From assembly GCA_016765295.1 (NCBI GenBank), contig JAESQF010000084.1:1-33546 (forward strand): a stretch of DNA of 33,546 nucleotides, read 5' to 3'. This document shows positions 3,728-32,933 of the stretch, in pieces. Under the pieces are notes generated by a model. It saw nothing but the letters and a program-made list of their open reading frames with translations, made no database searches and was not told the DNA's origin. The position numbers and the translations under genes are program-made. This stretch comes from Oleispira sp. Its GTDB lineage: Bacteria; Pseudomonadota; Gammaproteobacteria; Pseudomonadales; Oceanobacteraceae. The first letter of the stretch is position 1. Each line of letters opens with the position of its first letter.

Positions 3728-4183
3728 ATGTTACGTTTATTAGTTATTCCTTTAACCCTGATACTGATGGTTTGCGGATCGTTAAGTGCGGTGGCCGATA
3801 TCTATCGCTGGGTAGATGATAATGGCAACATACAGTTTTCAGACCGACCTGCTAGCGGCAAGAAGTCTGAGACGATAGAGATTGATACCACGAGGAACTC
3901 TTATGGCGGTGGAGACGTATTAAACCGTCAGAGTGATTTACTTGATCGCTATCAAAAGCAAGACCAGCAAGCGCAGAAAAACAAACAGCAGGCAGCGCTT
4001 GAGAAAGAAAATCAAAAAAGACTTAAGTCCAAATGTTTGCGCGCCAAAGACCAGCTTGCAAGGTACGAGAGAGGCAGTCTATATACGCTGGATGAGCAGG
4101 GTGAGCGTATTTATTACTCTGAGGAAAAGCGTACCCAGAAAATAGAGGCGTATCGAAAATCAATCAATACAAATTGTAAATAA
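3728..4183 (+). CDS. Exported DUF4124-domain protein
   Basis: A 151-residue protein with an N-terminal signal peptide (hydrophobic residues 3-23, probable cleavage after AVA near 21-23) followed directly by a DUF4124 motif, DIYRWVDDNGNIQFSDRP. Residues 70-105 are rich in Gln, Lys and Glu and likely form a helix or coiled coil; the C-terminal part has YTLDEQGERIYY and ends in a lone Cys-Lys. DUF4124 proteins are common periplasmic proteins of gammaproteobacteria without a settled function. AGGA precedes the ATG. It stands alone between terminated amtB and the sutA promoter. Confidence 0.8.
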   Translation: MLRLLVIPLTLILMVCGSLSAVADIYRWVDDNGNIQFSDRPASGKKSETIEIDTTRNSYGGGDVLNRQSDLLDRYQKQDQQAQKNKQQAALEKENQKRLKSKCLRAKDQLARYERGSLYTLDEQGERIYYSEEKRTQKIEAYRKSINTNCK

Positions 4184-4256
4184 ACACATTATTTATAAAA
4201 ATTACTACGAAAGTAGCAGTCAAAGCTGGCAAATTCCTGAAACTCAACTATAAATA

Positions 4257-4276
4257 TTGACAACCTGATGTCAGGT
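4257..4276 (+). promoter_or_regulatory. Perfect -35 box plus 14-bp palindrome ahead of sutA
   Basis: A consensus TTGACA (4257-4262) is followed immediately by the palindrome ACCTGATGTCAGGT (4263-4276). The nearest AT-rich -10 candidate, GATATT at 4284-4289, gives a 21-base spacer, too long for ordinary sigma-70 promoters but reminiscent of MerR-type promoters where a dyad sits in a stretched spacer. The regulator is unknown; the reading is tentative. Confidence 0.4.
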
Positions 4277-4316
4277 GAGAGCGGATATTGATTAATAATT
4301 AAAGGGAGCTGACATT

Positions 4317-4580
4317 ATGTCTGATCAAAAGACAAAGAAAACAGAAACAGCTGCGGCTAAGGCTGATAAGCCGAAAATGCATGCTGAAGGCTATCATAGT
4401 CATAATGAGGATATGCCAAACAGTGCTACCATTGCGGAGCGTCAGCGGCAGCGTGATGAGGTTGCGTCTGAAGTAGAAGCCTTCTTAGCACACGGAGGTG
4501 GAATAACTTCTGTTGATGCTAATGTGCGCGCAGATCCACCGAAAAAGCCTGAATCGAATTATGGCAGCCGACCTATCTAA
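4317..4580 (+). CDS. sutA: SutA-type RNA polymerase-binding regulator
   Basis: An 87-residue protein whose C-terminus (VRADPPKKPESNYGSRPI) matches from memory the C-terminus of Pseudomonas SutA, a small protein that binds RNA polymerase and raises transcription of housekeeping genes in slow growth. The preceding helix RQRQRDEVASEVEAFLAHGGGI also fits the family's central region. The N-terminal third differs: Pseudomonas SutA has a long acidic tail, whereas here residues 1-35 are Lys/Ala-rich with a His cluster (HAEGYHSHNE). AGGGAGC before the ATG is a strong ribosome site. In Pseudomonas sutA is also close to glnK-amtB, which supports the call. Confidence 0.75.
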   Translation: MSDQKTKKTETAAAKADKPKMHAEGYHSHNEDMPNSATIAERQRQRDEVASEVEAFLAHGGGITSVDANVRADPPKKPESNYGSRPI

Positions 4581-4603
4581 TTAACCTTTTATGTCTAATG
4601 CAG

Positions 4604-4631
4604 TATCACTGCTTTTAAAGTAGCAGTGATA
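4604..4631 (+). terminator. Hairpin after sutA
   Basis: A perfect 10-bp stem (TATCACTGCT at 4604-4613, AGCAGTGATA at 4622-4631) with an 8-base loop lies 24 bases after the sutA stop. No T tract follows, so it is either a weak terminator or a 3'-end protecting hairpin. Confidence 0.5.
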
Positions 4632-4715
4632 ATATATGTCTAAATTATGTCAAAGCTAAGTAAATCTTGTCAACTTGGTCACACTTTTCGTATTCTTTTT
4701 GTAGCTTTTGTTAAT

Positions 4716-4740
4716 ATTTACTTACACTAGTTAAGTAAAT
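4716..4740 (+). promoter_or_regulatory. Inverted repeat upstream of the small membrane protein gene
   Basis: ATTTACTTA (4716-4724) and TAAGTAAAT (4732-4740) form perfect 9-base arms around CACTAGT; TAAGTAAAT occurs again at 4657-4665. Placed 44 bases before the ATG at 4784, it looks like an operator for a dimeric repressor, though AT-rich symmetry can arise by chance. Confidence 0.4.
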
Positions 4741-4783
4741 ACGAAGTTTAACAAACTCAGGATGGATCCTGAAGGACAGTTCA

Positions 4784-4903
4784 ATGGCTAAGATAGCTTC
4801 CCCCGCAAAAATTCGTCGTCGCTTACATGCTTTCCCGGTCGCGTTTGGTTTACTGGCGTTATTGACTGTTATCATGTTTACCCGACAGAGTGCGGGTATG
4901 TGA
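4784..4903 (+). CDS. Small basic single-span membrane protein (39 aa), function unknown
   Basis: ATG at 4784 preceded by GAAGGA at 4771-4776 with 7-base spacing opens a 39-codon frame ending TGA at 4901-4903. The product starts with a basic segment (MAKIASPAKIRRRLHA), has one hydrophobic stretch (FPVAFGLLALLTVIMF, residues 17-32) and a short polar tail TRQSAGM, so it should be a single-pass inner-membrane protein with its N-terminus inside. I do not recognise the family. The stop touches the stop codon of the convergent HAD gene with no base between. The ribosome site, basic-plus-hydrophobic layout and upstream dyad argue it is real; its size leaves doubt. Confidence 0.6.
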   Translation: MAKIASPAKIRRRLHAFPVAFGLLALLTVIMFTRQSAGM

Positions 4904-5605
4904 TTAAGCGTACTGCTTAAGCAATGGTATAAGCTGGTCGAGATGCGTTATTTCATGATCGGCTAACTTTAATTCTTGCGGCCATGACTGTTGTAATAGA
5001 TTGGCCCAGATCGTTTTAAAGCCAAGCTGCTGTGCAGCCAAAACATCCTGTTCAGGATGATCTCCCACATGAATACATTCATTCGCTGATACTCCGGCAT
5101 GCTTCATTGCCGCGATAAACATATCAGCGTGAGGCTTTGGTCGTGGCATGTTTTCAGCGTGAAAGTGGCCAGCAAATAAGTGATCAATACCAATGACTTT
5201 TAAGTCCGAGTTGCCATTACTTAACGCGATTATTTGGTAGTCCTGCTGCAATGCTTGCAGCATATTAAGAGCCCCAGGAAATAACTCGACATTATTACGA
5301 GCGCTTAAAAATTCAGTAAATCCCTGCTGTGCTAAATCTTGTGCACGCAATGGCTCGCAGTCGCAGACTAAAAAAAGTTGGTAGAGAAATTCTACTCTAA
5401 GTTGGCTGAGTTTATGGCGTAGGTGTGGATTTTTACTAGCGATTTGAGCTTTAAATACTTGTAGGCTCTCAGGGTTGAATCGCTTCATCACGATTGGACA
5501 ATGAAGCTGAATCCAGTCCCATAATAGCTGCTCTGCGCGAACTATTACGGGATCGGTATGCCACAGGGTATTATCAAGATCAAAAGTGATCAGCTTAATA
5601 GTCAT
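4904..5605 (-). CDS. HAD-family phosphatase (YigB-like)
   Basis: A 233-residue cytoplasmic HAD hydrolase. Motif I is FDLDNTLW with nucleophile D9 and D11, motif II Ser is S129 in ALSNGN, motif III Lys is K157 in RPKPHADMF, and motif IV is HVGDHPEQD (D182, D187). The C1 cap is a helical insert at about residues 15-105. In E. coli and Pseudomonas the gene at this place, after dapF-DUF484-xerC, is yigB, reported to act on FMN and the riboflavin precursor phosphate, so that activity is likely but not shown by the sequence. It is the last gene of the lptM-lysA-dapF-DUF484 operon, 39 bases after DUF484, and no strong ribosome site is visible. Confidence 0.85.
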   Translation of the reverse strand: MTIKLITFDLDNTLWHTDPVIVRAEQLLWDWIQLHCPIVMKRFNPESLQVFKAQIASKNPHLRHKLSQLRVEFLYQLFLVCDCEPLRAQDLAQQGFTEFLSARNNVELFPGALNMLQALQQDYQIIALSNGNSDLKVIGIDHLFAGHFHAENMPRPKPHADMFIAAMKHAGVSANECIHVGDHPEQDVLAAQQLGFKTIWANLLQQSWPQELKLADHEITHLDQLIPLLKQYA

Positions 5606-5644
5606 GCGATCTGTTCATTCGAGCTGTTCATTTAATTCTGGAGC

Positions 5645-6316
5645 TTAGTTTTGTGGAATAGTGGGTAAGATTAATCCTAGAATATCAGCGATATAATCTA
5701 AGAATAAGGTATCCATTGAGCTGCGATAAAATTTAGGGTCATCGCTGGCAACACTAATAACACCGGTTTGCTGACCATTACGGATTTGTGCGGCGGCGAT
5801 AGACTCAGCGCGGCTTTGTTTTTCGTCTAGCAATAAATCCATTGTTTCATCGGTTAGCTGTCCACAAAAAGCGCGATGCCCTTTAAATAGGCGATGAATT
5901 TCGCGCTGCTTGTCTTTATCGCTAATGCTGTGCATTGGGTGTTCAAGCTTTTGCTCGGAAAAATACAATAGCGTCCAATGATCCACATTGAAGTCTTGGC
6001 GCAGACTATCATCCAGCGCTGCCTCAATATCAATCCAGTTTTTGGCATCAATCAGGGCCAACACCAAGCGCTTAGTTTTGCCAAATAATTTATCATTACG
6101 ACGGGCGTTTTCTAATAAATCAGTTAAGCGTTGGCGCAGCTCGACATTACGCTCACGATAAACTGCCAGTTGGCGTTCAATTAAGCTAGTCGCTTGGCCA
6201 GACTCGTGCGGAATACGCAGTCCTGCTAATAAATCATCCTTGGCGATGAAGAAATCAGGGTTATCTTGTAAATACTGTATGACATCGGCATCAGTGAGTC
6301 GTAATGAGTCGCTCAT
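5645..6316 (-). CDS. DUF484 family protein
   Basis: A 223-residue DUF484 protein: the N-terminal DADVIQYLQDNPDFF motif is diagnostic, followed by a helical RQLAVYRERNVELRQRLTDLLENARRN coiled-coil segment (about 48-75) and a GAF-like domain from about 80 to 220. Its function is not established; the family sits between dapF and xerC in most gammaproteobacteria. Here dapF is 45 bases upstream but xerC, expected directly downstream, is missing. AGGAAT in TAAAGGAATAGATA supports the start. Confidence 0.87.
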   Translation of the reverse strand: MSDSLRLTDADVIQYLQDNPDFFIAKDDLLAGLRIPHESGQATSLIERQLAVYRERNVELRQRLTDLLENARRNDKLFGKTKRLVLALIDAKNWIDIEAALDDSLRQDFNVDHWTLLYFSEQKLEHPMHSISDKDKQREIHRLFKGHRAFCGQLTDETMDLLLDEKQSRAESIAAAQIRNGQQTGVISVASDDPKFYRSSMDTLFLDYIADILGLILPTIPQN

Positions 6317-6361
6317 TATCTATTCCTTTAAATCTGCATCGTCTATCAATAGCGCTGGCTA

Positions 6362-7204
6362 TTAGATATTAACTCGGCCTTCAAATACATTGCTGGTTGG
6401 TCCTGTCATGATGACATCGCCTTTACCATCCCACTCAATGGTTAGTGAGCCGCCTGGCAAATCAACCTGCACCTTGTGGTCGAGTAAATCGCGTAATATA
6501 CCCGAGACAACCGCGCCACAAGCGCCAGTGCCACAGGCTTTAGTTTCGCCAACCGCGCGTTCGAAAACGCGAAGCTTTATATGGCTGCGATTAACAATCT
6601 GCATGAAGCCAACATTTACTTTCTTTGGGAAGCTAGTATGGGTTTCTACTAGCGCCCCTAAAGTATCTACTGGCGCCGTTTCAATGTCGTCTACTAGGAT
6701 AACCCCGTGCGGGTTGCCCATAGAAACGGCACCTAGTTCAATGCAACCATGGCCTTCAACATCAATCTTGTAGCTAACGGCTTGCGCTTTATCAGCGCCA
6801 GCAGGAATAAAAGGCACATCTGCTGGGGCTAAAATTGGAGGTCCCATATTCACGATGACATCGTTTTCAGGGGTCAGCTCTAATGTCATATTACCATTGG
6901 CTGTTTCAACACGAATGTTACGGCGACCAATCAACTTTTGCTCGTAAACAAAACGCGCAAAACAACGAGCGCCGTTTCCACAGTTTTCAACTTCACTGCC
7001 GTCGGAATTAAAAATACGATATTTAAAATCAACGTCCGTTTGAGTAGGTACTTCCACTAATAATAATTGGTCGAAGCCTACGCCAAAGTTGCGATCCGCC
7101 AAATGACGAATCTGCATCGGTGTGAGGTACGCATGCTGAGTGACGAGGTCAACGACCATGAAGTCGTTACCTAGGCCGTGCATTTTACTAAATTTAATCC
7201 ACAT
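6362..7204 (-). CDS. dapF: Diaminopimelate epimerase
   Basis: DapF converts LL- to meso-diaminopimelate, the precursor of lysine and of the peptidoglycan cross-link. The 280 residues have the two catalytic cysteines in their motifs: C75 in ENCGNGARCF and C224 in KACGTGACG. Substrate-binding GNDF (12-15) and GNPHGV (163-168) are present. Length is typical. It lies 23 bases downstream of lysA, which uses its product, so the two are co-transcribed. TAAAAGG near the lysA-dapF junction serves as ribosome site. Confidence 0.96.
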   Translation of the reverse strand: MWIKFSKMHGLGNDFMVVDLVTQHAYLTPMQIRHLADRNFGVGFDQLLLVEVPTQTDVDFKYRIFNSDGSEVENCGNGARCFARFVYEQKLIGRRNIRVETANGNMTLELTPENDVIVNMGPPILAPADVPFIPAGADKAQAVSYKIDVEGHGCIELGAVSMGNPHGVILVDDIETAPVDTLGALVETHTSFPKKVNVGFMQIVNRSHIKLRVFERAVGETKACGTGACGAVVSGILRDLLDHKVQVDLPGGSLTIEWDGKGDVIMTGPTSNVFEGRVNI

Positions 7205-13185: not shown

Positions 13186-13255
13186 GCGGTCTAACGCGTG
13201 AGGCATTTAGTCGTGCTATCTAGTCGTGGGATTGGACGGGGTTTGTTACACTCAA

Positions 13256-14320
13256 ATGATGGATATACATAATAAAAAACTCGACTCCTTCTTCTTACCT
13301 GACCTGTGTAATGTATACGCAGTATTAGTGCTCATCGTATTATCTGAAACTTTAGTGATGGCGCTTTTGCTGGTCGAAAGTGGCTTGGTGGGTTTTCAGT
13401 GGGAACGTTTTGCCACCTTGTCGTATTTTGTGCAATGGGTGGCGTTACTATCGGTGGCTCTCTTATGTCAGTCGCGCAAGTTCATGGCTCGCTTAGCCTT
13501 GCTCTGGGCTGTCTGCTGGGCAATGTCACTATTGATGCTGGTTTGCTTTGTTATTAGTTATGCCGCGGAGTCTCTATTTCCTTTTGCGGCACTGAGTAAC
13601 CAAGTTAACTGGTTATGGATTTTGCGGAATATCATCATCAGTGCCATCTTTGGGGGTATGGGTCTGCGCTATTTCTATGTGCAAAGCCAGTGGCGATTAA
13701 AAAGCCAAGCTGAATTAAATTCGCGCTTACAGGCACTGCAGGCTCGAATTCGTCCGCACTTCTTCTTTAATAGTCTTAATACAGTCGCTTCGTTAATCGC
13801 CATAGATCCAGAAAAGGCAGAAAACATGCTGGTGGATCTATCATCGTTATTTCGTGTGGTGCTGAAAGATCAAGATGCGCAAGTGGATCTTGCCGCCGAA
13901 ATCGAATTAGGCCGCCGTTATTTGAATATTGAACAAGAGCGTTTGGGAGATAGACTCAGATTGGAATGGCAGTTACCTGATGACATTCCAAATATCCAAG
14001 TGCCGCAATTACTATTACAGCCTTTATTGGAAAACGCGATTTATCATGGCATTCAACCTTTGATTGATGGTGGTAAAGTTACTATTAGTTTGAGCAGCAT
14101 GATCAATAGTGGCGCTAAATATCAGCGTTGGTTCTTAGCCATAGAAAACGATAAGCTCGATTCCCCAGTGAAAAGCGCAGGCCATCAAATCTCATTGCCC
14201 AATATAGCCATGCGTTTAGAAGCCATATTTGGCGATAAAGCGGCATTAGACTTCAGTGAAACTGCTAACCAGTACCGTGTGATTATCGAGCTACCCGATT
14301 ACAATAAAGACCGTAACTAA
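13256..14320 (+). CDS. algZ: AlgZ/FimS-type LytS-family sensor kinase
   Basis: Inner-membrane sensor of the AlgZ-AlgR pair. The likely start is the ATG at 13256 (354 residues); the frame can extend to a GTG at 13226 without a ribosome site, and the AlgZ-like DSFFLPDLC segment lies just after the ATG. Four hydrophobic helices occupy about residues 20-145. The kinase core is of the His_kinase type: phosphoacceptor-region His168 in ARIRPHFFFNSLN and N-box LLLQPLLENAIYHG, ending with LPNIAMRLEAIFG as the G-box region. In Pseudomonas this pair governs alginate, pili and virulence; targets here are unknown. algR follows 38 bases downstream. Confidence 0.85.
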   Translation: MMDIHNKKLDSFFLPDLCNVYAVLVLIVLSETLVMALLLVESGLVGFQWERFATLSYFVQWVALLSVALLCQSRKFMARLALLWAVCWAMSLLMLVCFVISYAAESLFPFAALSNQVNWLWILRNIIISAIFGGMGLRYFYVQSQWRLKSQAELNSRLQALQARIRPHFFFNSLNTVASLIAIDPEKAENMLVDLSSLFRVVLKDQDAQVDLAAEIELGRRYLNIEQERLGDRLRLEWQLPDDIPNIQVPQLLLQPLLENAIYHGIQPLIDGGKVTISLSSMINSGAKYQRWFLAIENDKLDSPVKSAGHQISLPNIAMRLEAIFGDKAALDFSETANQYRVIIELPDYNKDRN

Positions 14321-14358
14321 GAATAATCGCTAATACAGCTACAAACGCAGGAGGCCCA

Positions 14359-15141
14359 ATGAGTATAAGAGTATTACTGGTAGATGATGAACCACTGGCG
14401 CGCCAGCGTTTAGCAAGGTTGCTAGTTGAGCATGACAATTATCAGATTGTTGCTGAGGCAGGAAATGGCCAGGCTGCATTAGACTGGCTGCGTCAGCATA
14501 AAGCGGATTTGGTTTTATTAGATATCCAGATGCCAGGTTTAACCGGATTGGAAGTTGCAGAGCAGTTAATGGCTTTGCTACCGGCTACTGCAGCGCGACC
14601 TGCCATTATTTTTTGCACTGCTTATGACGAATATGCCTTGGATGCTTTTAAGGTTGAAGCGGTAGATTATTTGTTAAAACCCATTCGCAAAGATGATCTA
14701 TCGAAAGCCTTACAAAAAGCTCAACGCTGGATTGAACAGCAACCCGATGCTGAGCAAACCACGGCCATCGAAAACTGTGCCCGAACTCATATCAGCGCCC
14801 GTACTCATCAAGGCTTACAGCTTATTCCGATTACTGAGATCTACAGCTTTCAGGCAGATCAAAAATACATCACGGTGAAATATGAAACCACCGATGCCGC
14901 CAGTGGTGAATCTAGCAATGGCGAGGTGCTAATTGATGAACCGCTGAAGATGCTAGAAGATGAATTTGAGCAGCATTTTGTGCGCATACATCGTAATGCG
15001 CTAGTGGCTAAAGATAAGATTGATCGGCTTGAAACCGTTGATAGCAGTATCCATATTCTCTATCTGAAAGGTGTAGCGGAAGGGATGAGCGTGAGTCGTC
15101 GCCATTTACCTGGTGTCAGGAAGTTAATGCGCGGGCTATAA
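14359..15141 (+). CDS. algR: AlgR-type LytTR response regulator
   Basis: A 260-residue response regulator: receiver domain at 1-125 with acidic pocket D9/D10, phosphoacceptor D55 in VLLDIQMPG, switch Thr in FCTAYDEYA and K107 in LLKPI; LytTR DNA-binding domain from about 150 to 255, with [15 protein letters not shown] as its signature. GGAGG 6 bases before the ATG. It pairs with the preceding kinase and lies before hemC, the conserved Pseudomonas order. LytTR regulators bind direct repeats; no clear AlgR box was found in this window. Confidence 0.9.
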
Positions 15142-31170: not shown

Positions 31171-31710
31171 TTGTCTGAATCAAAAGACGACTCAATAATT
31201 GGTGGGCATTTTGCCACAAATCCGCCTGCGAGCCCACTTGAAAACCCATCCCGCGACCATCTAGACAGCCCGCTTTGGCGCTATGCTTGTCAGGTATACT
31301 CGCAGCAAGGTGTGGAAGCGACCTTGTTGAAATTGCAAGATGATCATGGGGCAGATATTAACTTGATTCTGCAAGCCTTGTGGCTAGCTAATGAGGGGCG
31401 CAGTTGGACGAAAGATTGTATTCCTGCCAATTATGAAAAATGGATGATCGAACAGGTGCTGCCGTTACGACGGGTGCGCCGTAGTATGAAGACGGACTGG
31501 GTAGGCTATGAGGATTTCCGCCAGCAGGTGAAAAAGCTGGAGCTTAAAGCTGAGCAATATGCGTTGGCGATGTTGTATTTAAATACAGAGGGATCGGCAA
31601 CTGAGTCTGCCGCGGAAAAAGTCAGCTTAGCAGGGCAGAATATGCGTACCCTGGCAGAGTATTTGGCAATCGAAAATACTCTACTACAGGATATTGTTCC
31701 TTATGCCTAA
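31171..31710 (+). CDS. TIGR02444 family protein
   Basis: A 179-residue cytoplasmic protein with the TIGR02444 (DUF2390) pattern: SPLWRYACQVYSQQGVEATLLKLQDDHGADINLILQALWLA, then WMIEQVLPLRRVRRSMKT. The start codon is TTG at 31171, supported by GAGGG eight bases upstream; the next in-frame ATG would remove the conserved region. The first 30 residues are a polar extension. It is divergent from yheS, its usual neighbour. Function unknown. Its TAA overlaps by three bases the stop of the convergent kinase gene. Confidence 0.85.
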   Translation: MSESKDDSIIGGHFATNPPASPLENPSRDHLDSPLWRYACQVYSQQGVEATLLKLQDDHGADINLILQALWLANEGRSWTKDCIPANYEKWMIEQVLPLRRVRRSMKTDWVGYEDFRQQVKKLELKAEQYALAMLYLNTEGSATESAAEKVSLAGQNMRTLAEYLAIENTLLQDIVPYA

Positions 31711-32933
31711 ATCGATGGTGCCTGAATGATAGGTTCCTGCTTATTTTCATGAGCACGGGTTATTAAATTAGCCGGTAAATGAATAGTGAAGCTAGTCCCT
31801 TGATCTAGGATGCTTTTACATACTAGCTCCCCTTTTAAATGGCTCACAGTATTGTACAAAATTGTCATACCCAGTCCGGTATGGCCTTCTACACGTTTAG
31901 TTGTATAAAACGGATTAAATACTTTCTCGACCTGCTCCTCGTCCATGCCTAGGCCATTATCGGAATACTTTATTAATAACGAACCATCAGCGTCGAGCAT
32001 AATATTCAACTCTATTAGCCCTTGTGCAGGATTGGTAAAAGCATGGATGGCAGAATTCTCCATTAAATTAGTCAGGATATGAATAATACTACTGGGGTTA
32101 GCGGTTATCATTATGTCTGGTGGGCAATTAAATTCTATATTCGAGGGTGTTAATTTGAGCTTACTTGATAGAACACTGATTAGATCGACTAAATAGTCTT
32201 TTAGATCAAAGCAAAAATCATCGTCGCGTTTTTGATTAACGGCAATGTTTTTGAAAACCTCAACCAAGTTGGCAGTTTGATTGAGGTTTTTATATATTAA
32301 TTCGATGCCATCCGATAATTCATCAAATAATTGAGTAGAGTCTTGTGGGGTTAACTTTGTTTTTTTCCCCCACTCAATTCTTTCTTGTAGATAGCTGGCC
32401 GAGGTTATACCAATGCCAATGGGGGTATTTAACTCGTGGGCAATACCGCCCACTAGATTACCTAGGGAGGCTAGTTTCTCTGATTCAATAATATGTTTTT
32501 GCGCAGACTTTAACTTGTTTAGTGAAATAGATAGCGCTTCGTTCTTTTTCTTTAACATGGACGGGCTGGCGAGGCCGAGAAAAAAAGGCAAGATAAACCA
32601 AATGAGAATGCCGGTGAAGAAAGAACTGGTCGCGGTGATGGCTTTTGATATGGCTGAAATACCGTATATAGGTTCCCAGATCACTATGGCACTAATGAGA
32701 TGGGTGGTACCGCAGGCCATAAATATAATGGACCCCGCTAGAACAAAAAACCAAGGATAGGGCAAATCAGTTCGTTTGTTGACAAAATAAATGAAAGCCA
32801 AGGTTATTGAATAGTAAGATAATGCGGTGACGATATCTGAGGCGACTGAGGTCCAGAGAATATCGGGTTGCCAAAGGTAGCACATACCGTGGGGCATGAA
32901 TTTTTCGTAATCAAAGAAAGAATCGCTGTTCAT
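31707..32933 (-). CDS. Orphan sensor kinase with ethylene-receptor-like membrane domain
   Basis: A 408-residue histidine kinase. Residues 25-120 form three transmembrane helices resembling the ethylene-binding domain of plant ETR1 and cyanobacterial Etr1: D33 and Y40 (ETR1 D25, Y32), I43 (I35), IYFV in the first helix end, PY-W in the loop, and CGTTHLI with C74 and H78 (copper ligands C65 and H69). The residue at the P36 position is Thr. A short coiled coil (125-150) leads to the H-box GGIAHELNTPIG (H166), N-box NLMENSAIHAF, DNGLGMD and GHTGLGM. No response regulator adjoins. AGGAAG precedes the ATG. Ethylene binding is not shown; related domains may sense other ligands. Confidence 0.85.
   Translation of the reverse strand: MNSDSFFDYEKFMPHGMCYLWQPDILWTSVASDIVTALSYYSITLAFIYFVNKRTDLPYPWFFVLAGSIIFMACGTTHLISAIVIWEPIYGISAISKAITATSSFFTGILIWFILPFFLGLASPSMLKKKNEALSISLNKLKSAQKHIIESEKLASLGNLVGGIAHELNTPIGIGITSASYLQERIEWGKKTKLTPQDSTQLFDELSDGIELIYKNLNQTANLVEVFKNIAVNQKRDDDFCFDLKDYLVDLISVLSSKLKLTPSNIEFNCPPDIMITANPSSIIHILTNLMENSAIHAFTNPAQGLIELNIMLDADGSLLIKYSDNGLGMDEEQVEKVFNPFYTTKRVEGHTGLGMTILYNTVSHLKGELVCKSILDQGTSFTIHLPANLITRAHENKQEPIIQAPSI

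Follow-up and report, generated by a model that had tools for sequence, protein, structure and literature searches.

A proteobacterial ETR1-type sensor kinase from Oleispira sp. belongs to a clade with an extra helix 2 residue and a probably remodelled ligand pocket

Introduction

AzoEtr1 of Azospirillum binds ethylene, and ETR1-type domains are thus known in bacteria (PMC11819568). The first 130 residues of AzoEtr1, cloned from strain Sp245, bound ethylene saturably in Pichia, cells of strain Sp7 bound ethylene through AzoEtr1, and a response regulator gene lies adjacent to the receptor gene (PMC11819568). Ligand tests of microbial ETR1-type receptors are few, and direct evidence before AzoEtr1 is said to have come only from Synechocystis and one mycorrhizal fungus (PMC11819568). 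The Synechocystis protein, SynEtr1, is a bacterial, kinase-type ethylene receptor acting via its kinase and a response regulator (PMC11819568). It resembles the protein studied here in these respects and differs in being also a light sensor, a likeness drawn from description rather than from sequence.

The plant allele etr1-4 carries the change I62F, and Never-ripe of tomato carries P36L. In ETR1, P36 and I62 both count among the residues described as essential for the binding of ethylene (PMC6586836), and a squash receptor carrying P36L has been counted among the ethylene-insensitive etr mutants (PMC8012379).

The window analyzed here is a stretch of 33,546 nucleotides from Oleispira sp. (contig JAESQF010000084.1, positions 1 to 33,546). 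A preliminary description made from its letters had named an ethylene-receptor-like sensor domain on an orphan histidine kinase and suggested that the bacterium may sense ethylene, another small olefin, or copper/redox state.

Methods

Searches with the Pfam ETR1_N profile gave two matches in the own genome and matches over the cut-off in 4 of 55 genomes of relatives, 46 of 390 genomes of the order, and 10 of 274 genomes of the class. A second profile was built from the first four sequences with an extra helix 2 residue (hereafter the +1 form; all clade members but L104). With this profile, matches were obtained in 23 of 349 genomes of the phylum, in 1 of 2, 5 of 15, and 1 of 6 genomes of three families, in 5 of 44 genomes of the own family, and in 11 of 369 genomes when the class was searched again. 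Five plasmid records were added to the ETR1_N sample, and AzoEtr1 (L110) from A. brasilense Sp7 plasmid ABSP7_p1 served as the positive control.

For the residue table, 110 open frames passed a filter of 25 bits and 70 positions, and frames that agreed in the matched core's first 70 residues were merged, leaving 86 domains. Four below-cut-off matches of the order search were left out, and L045-L048 (class search) and short fragments failed the filter. L130 and L132 (61 bits; second class search) stand outside the 86-domain table, and L130 has normal helix 2 spacing. One profile scan of viral contigs confirmed no viral relatives, and a scan of a genome contig collection gave a single match, which was kinase-only.

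Results and Discussion

The kinase gene and its domains are located as follows.

31707..32933, minus strand: sensor histidine kinase, 408 aa (open reading frame list; ETR1_N and HATPase_c over cut-off)
32577..32861, minus strand: ETR1_N domain (PF25487), residues 25-119, three predicted transmembrane helices (Pfam genome scan, protein scan, hydropathy)
32436..32438, minus strand: His166, H box AHELNTP (sequence)
31770..32096, minus strand: HATPase_c catalytic domain, residues 280-388 (67.2 bits, cut-off 26.4)

The gene has an ATG start with AGGAAG upstream. Its product matched ETR1_N with 91.5 bits (Pfam; cut-off 27, E = 4.2e-26), a value that rules out chance resemblance and bears out the ETR1-type domain that had been proposed at 32574-32876 (residues 20-120). 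The domain did not fall into an unrelated family of membrane sensors. The motif set of two-component histidine kinases is present, with an H box, an N box, G boxes, and HATPase_c, while HisKA scored 18.9 bits, under its cut-off of 26.9. We assign His166 as the phospho-acceptor of the H box, and the N box and G boxes were located under their usual motif names. No GAF domain was found in a Pfam scan of the protein. Judged by its sequence, the window gene is a real ETR1-type sensor kinase of the bacterial ETR1_N family.

Hydropathy placed hydrophobic stretches at about residues 30-52 (weak), 56-87, and 97-128. Lysine and arginine counts were 1, 2, 0, and 6 in the N-terminus, loop 1, loop 2, and the region after helix 3, respectively, a positive-inside pattern. 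Because of these three stretches and this charge distribution, the N-terminus is predicted to lie outside and the kinase inside. Single-sequence structure predictions reached a pLDDT of 59.5 for the domain and 35.3 for the whole protein, too weak for any distance to be read, those among D33, C74, and H78 included, and the low-confidence domain model shows three helices. A profile search for a solved ETR1_N structure found none and returned xanthorhodopsin at chance level (E = 0.51). A high-resolution structure is also described as lacking for ETR1 (PMC13012798, section 6).

The sensor positions considered below are the following.

32880..32891, minus strand: His15 and Cys18 of the N-terminal PHGMC motif
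32835..32837, minus strand: Asp33, at ETR1 D25
32802..32807, minus strand: Ile43, at ETR1 I35, and Thr44, at the ETR1 P36 place
32721..32726, minus strand: Ile70 and Phe71, ambiguous counterparts of ETR1 I62
32700..32714, minus strand: Cys74-x3-His78, at the ETR1 C65/H69 copper ligands, after the one-residue helix 2 insertion
32643..32645, minus strand: Lys97, at ETR1 K91 in helix 3
32610..32612, minus strand: Gly108, at the ETR1 A102 place

Residues D33, Y40, I43, C74, H78, K97, and S104 correspond to ETR1 D25, Y32, I35, C65, H69, K91, and S98, respectively, in an ETR1 numbering that agrees with published positions. The preliminary description had read the Asp, Tyr, and Ile of helix 1, a PY-W motif in the first loop, Cys-x3-His in the second helix, Thr for P36, and one extra residue between the loop Trp and the Cys, and all of these were recovered. 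The loop motif is P58-Y59-x-W61, and W61 and C74 are 13 steps apart versus 12 in ETR1 and AzoEtr1. Of the ETR1 set D25, Y32, I35, P36, C65, and H69, P36 is the one replaced. Further differences from ETR1 are Gly108 for A102, PHGMC for CNC, and the missing GAF domain.

The counterpart of I62 is as ambiguous as first described, with Phe71 at Cys-3 and Ile70 at Cys-4. As the residues stand, either the distance from the Ile to the copper Cys is longer by one residue, or Phe substitutes for Ile. Both MAFFT alignments placed the extra residue two positions before the Cys (M72) and Ile70 at the I62 place, so the Ile of the pocket may have been retained. Immediately ahead of helix 1, 77 of the 86 sampled bacterial domains carry a PHGxC-like motif that ETR1 lacks, having Cys-x-Cys at that position. 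This motif could be a second metal site or a copper-entry site.

AzoEtr1 (525 aa) and the window protein each carry a three-helix ETR1_N domain on a proteobacterial histidine kinase, with the same D, Y, I, C, H, and K places, and are 42.7% identical over residues 4-127 (Sp7 sequence). The control showed D35, C75, H79, and K98 as published (PMC11819568). AzoEtr1 also has P46, Ile at Cys-3, normal helix 2 spacing, a PAS domain, and an adjacent response regulator, none of which the window protein shares.

The extra helix 2 residue was found in 5 of the 86 domains: the window protein, L104, L063, L064, and L065. These five formed one branch with a support of 100/100 in a tree built without the trait columns (ETR1 36, 57-64 with the insertion, and 102); the tree held 84 rows including ETR1, with the very divergent L043, L044, and L066 left out, and 86 columns, its bootstrap had not quite converged, and it leaves many other forks open. 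All five members belong to the window's order. The +1 form was not seen elsewhere in the class, phylum, and family searches, where the highest scores outside the clade were 132 bits (class, phylum) and 140 bits (families) versus 208-245 bits for the clade. No published description of it was found in the literature searched, an absence that is not proof. An assembly or sequencing error behind Thr44 and the extra residue was rejected as unlikely because both recur in the independent L104, from another genus of the same family; L063, L064, and L065 likewise have the extra residue.

Within the clade, the D25, Y32, C65, H69, K91, and S98 places were kept in all five members. The I35 place holds Ile in three and Phe in two, and the P36 place Thr in two, Ala in two, Met in one, and Pro in none. 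Phe stands at Cys-3 in every member, the Ile70 column reads Ile, Ile, Val (L063), Ile, and Ile, and the A102 place is Gly in four and Ser in one. The other 81 domains have Pro at P36 in 70 cases (Ser, Ala, or Gly in the remaining 11), Ile at Cys-3 in 73, Ala at 102 in 76, and normal spacing in 79. Among the 75 rows with D25, C65, and H69, Phe at Cys-3 is confined to the five +1 members. The seven ETR1 residues tied to ethylene reception (D25, Y32, I35, P36, I62, C65, and H69) are all present in 59 of the 86 domains. The residue table also holds L006 with Trp at the copper Cys, and L090 and L091 with Arg at the copper His.

The sensors of the window protein and L104 are 70% identical, with a dN/dS of about 0.18 (0.225/1.256) from this one pair only, and the sensor is under purifying selection. 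Their kinases are 44% identical, and dS is inestimable there. Clade outputs differ: a plain kinase in the window protein and L104, and a hybrid kinase with a receiver in L065. L063 (2183-3388, minus strand) has Asn for the phospho-acceptor His in its H box, a changed G2 box, and an intact sensor, and from these residues it is likely a pseudokinase. L064 (3331-3825, minus strand) is a stand-alone +1 sensor of 164 aa, and no kinase was seen downstream when three frames were inspected by eye.

A canonical second receptor accompanies the +1 copy in two of the five clade genomes, several of which are fragmented: the own genome (L001) and G987 (L108, whose start is cut off and whose six visible ETR1 residues are all kept). 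The other three carry the +1 copy only, by the order search, and five other genomes of the genus had no ETR1_N match. L001 (G000:C12) resembles the window protein in having ETR1_N and a related kinase; the sensors are 50% identical and the kinases 34%, over a region where L001 has ambiguous residues. It differs in retaining the full set of seven ETR1 residues with the usual helix 2 spacing, and it lies on another branch of the tree. The different branches and the 50% sensor identity rule out a recent duplication of L001. The kinase half of L001 and its downstream neighbours are rich in ambiguous bases, as if strains had been mixed in assembly.

The kinase had been called an orphan, and within the contig this holds. 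Among 28 window ORFs scanned with Pfam (a set with few ORFs shorter than about 150 aa), the sole response regulator, at 14359-15141, lies about 16.6 kb from the gene and adjoins a histidine kinase of its own. That pair (13226-15141), a LytTR response regulator with its kinase, lies between the argininosuccinate lyase and porphobilinogen deaminase genes and presumably resembles AlgZ/AlgR of Pseudomonas. No response regulator was found on the one available side of L104, whose contig begins 189 bases before the gene, and the nearest one to L063 lies at a distance of 8.4 kb and is paired with a kinase of its own. Orphan status does not extend to the whole clade: in L064, two genes on the same strand precede the sensor gene, a hybrid kinase and a response regulator whose HD domain is of the HD_5 type (at 4051-5211 and 5283-6992). 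These neighbours hint at cyclic-di-GMP output.

Just upstream of the window gene, and on its strand, lies a UPF0014 gene fragment (140 bits), and the FetB-type iron exporter model was sub-cut-off. After fetB, genomes G002, G003, and G005 have other sequence, and inspection by eye showed nothing resembling a fetB ORF next to L063. A conserved operon with fetB was ruled out by these differing neighbourhoods. In the sibling G002, a Band_7 (SPFH) gene (L121, 2025-2897, plus strand, 290 aa) stands between fetB and a DUF2390 gene, so the kinase site is a variable slot.

Our favoured reading, to which we assign a probability of about 0.55, is that the window protein is a Cu(I)-type sensor kinase of the +1 sub-clade with a remodelled pocket, and that its ethylene affinity is probably weak or lost. 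C74 and H78 of helix 2 would bind Cu(I), and D33 (helix 1) and K97 (helix 3) would couple this copper site to helix 3. Helix 3 would shift in response to a small neutral ligand or to the loading of copper as such, and the stretch past residue 120 would relay this shift to the kinase. The kinase would autophosphorylate H166 and then pass the phosphate to a response regulator that we infer is encoded elsewhere. The signal may be copper/redox state or a different small molecule that binds copper. High-affinity binding of ethylene is expected to be slight or absent because P36 is replaced and the pocket Ile-Cys distance is changed, with Phe at Cys-3. These clade changes fall at or beside the plant ethylene-loss positions while the copper ligands are kept, which makes ethylene sensing less likely. 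The suggestion in the preliminary description therefore survived in part: the ETR1-type family and the intact copper ligands stood, and the case for ethylene lost strength.

Ethylene sensing by the window protein is possible, though less likely than for canonical members. In an alternative that we consider unlikely, the protein would be an ordinary bacterial ethylene receptor in which a helix 2 bulge absorbs the extra residue and ethylene still binds at Cu(I). Retention of every copper-site residue, Ile70 at the I62 place in both alignments, and the identity to AzoEtr1 agree with this. Loss of the Pro alone is also no proof of lost ethylene binding, because the 11 other domains without it have no known ligand; Thr or Ala at P36 may be tolerated where Leu is not. 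Against an ordinary receptor stand the combination of a replaced P36 and Phe at Cys-3 in all five members, the description of P36 and I62 as essential in ETR1 (PMC6586836), and the presence of L001, with all seven residues, in the same genome.

A narrower form of the favoured reading, which appears doubtful, would make the protein a copper/redox sensor whose ligand is the metal and whose pocket for an organic ligand has been given up. It would account for metal ligands that are invariant across the clade beside pocket positions that vary, for the conserved PHGxC-like His-Cys pair as possible periplasmic metal entry, and for the UPF0014 fragment upstream. The inconstant fetB neighbourhood argues against it, and no copper regulon is linked to the window kinase. 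Decay to a sensor domain without a ligand is very improbable: the missing phospho-acceptor of L063 and the kinase-less L064 would fit it, but the sensor is the better-kept part of the protein and under constraint, which speaks against decay, as do the intact H boxes of the window protein and L104, clade changes that are common to members rather than scattered, and the hybrid kinase and response regulator adjoining L064.

Extended from the window protein to the +1 clade, the favoured reading becomes more tentative and falls somewhat short of even odds. The clade would have kept the ETR1 copper site with its register against the ligand pocket shifted by one residue, giving an ethylene-blind Cu(I) sensor for another small ligand or copper that in two of five genomes shares the cell with a canonical receptor. 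Perhaps the register shift takes the form of a pi-bulge beside the Cys, balanced by Gly or Ser at the A102 place.

Conclusion

Herein, ETR1-type sensors in bacteria were already known, and what is new is the +1 type as a clade. The clade offers a natural experiment that parts copper binding from ethylene binding. Its comparison with AzoEtr1 and with the canonical copy of the own genome would reveal the positions that set ligand choice. Such a comparison would also test how safe it is to annotate every ETR1_N protein as an ethylene receptor.
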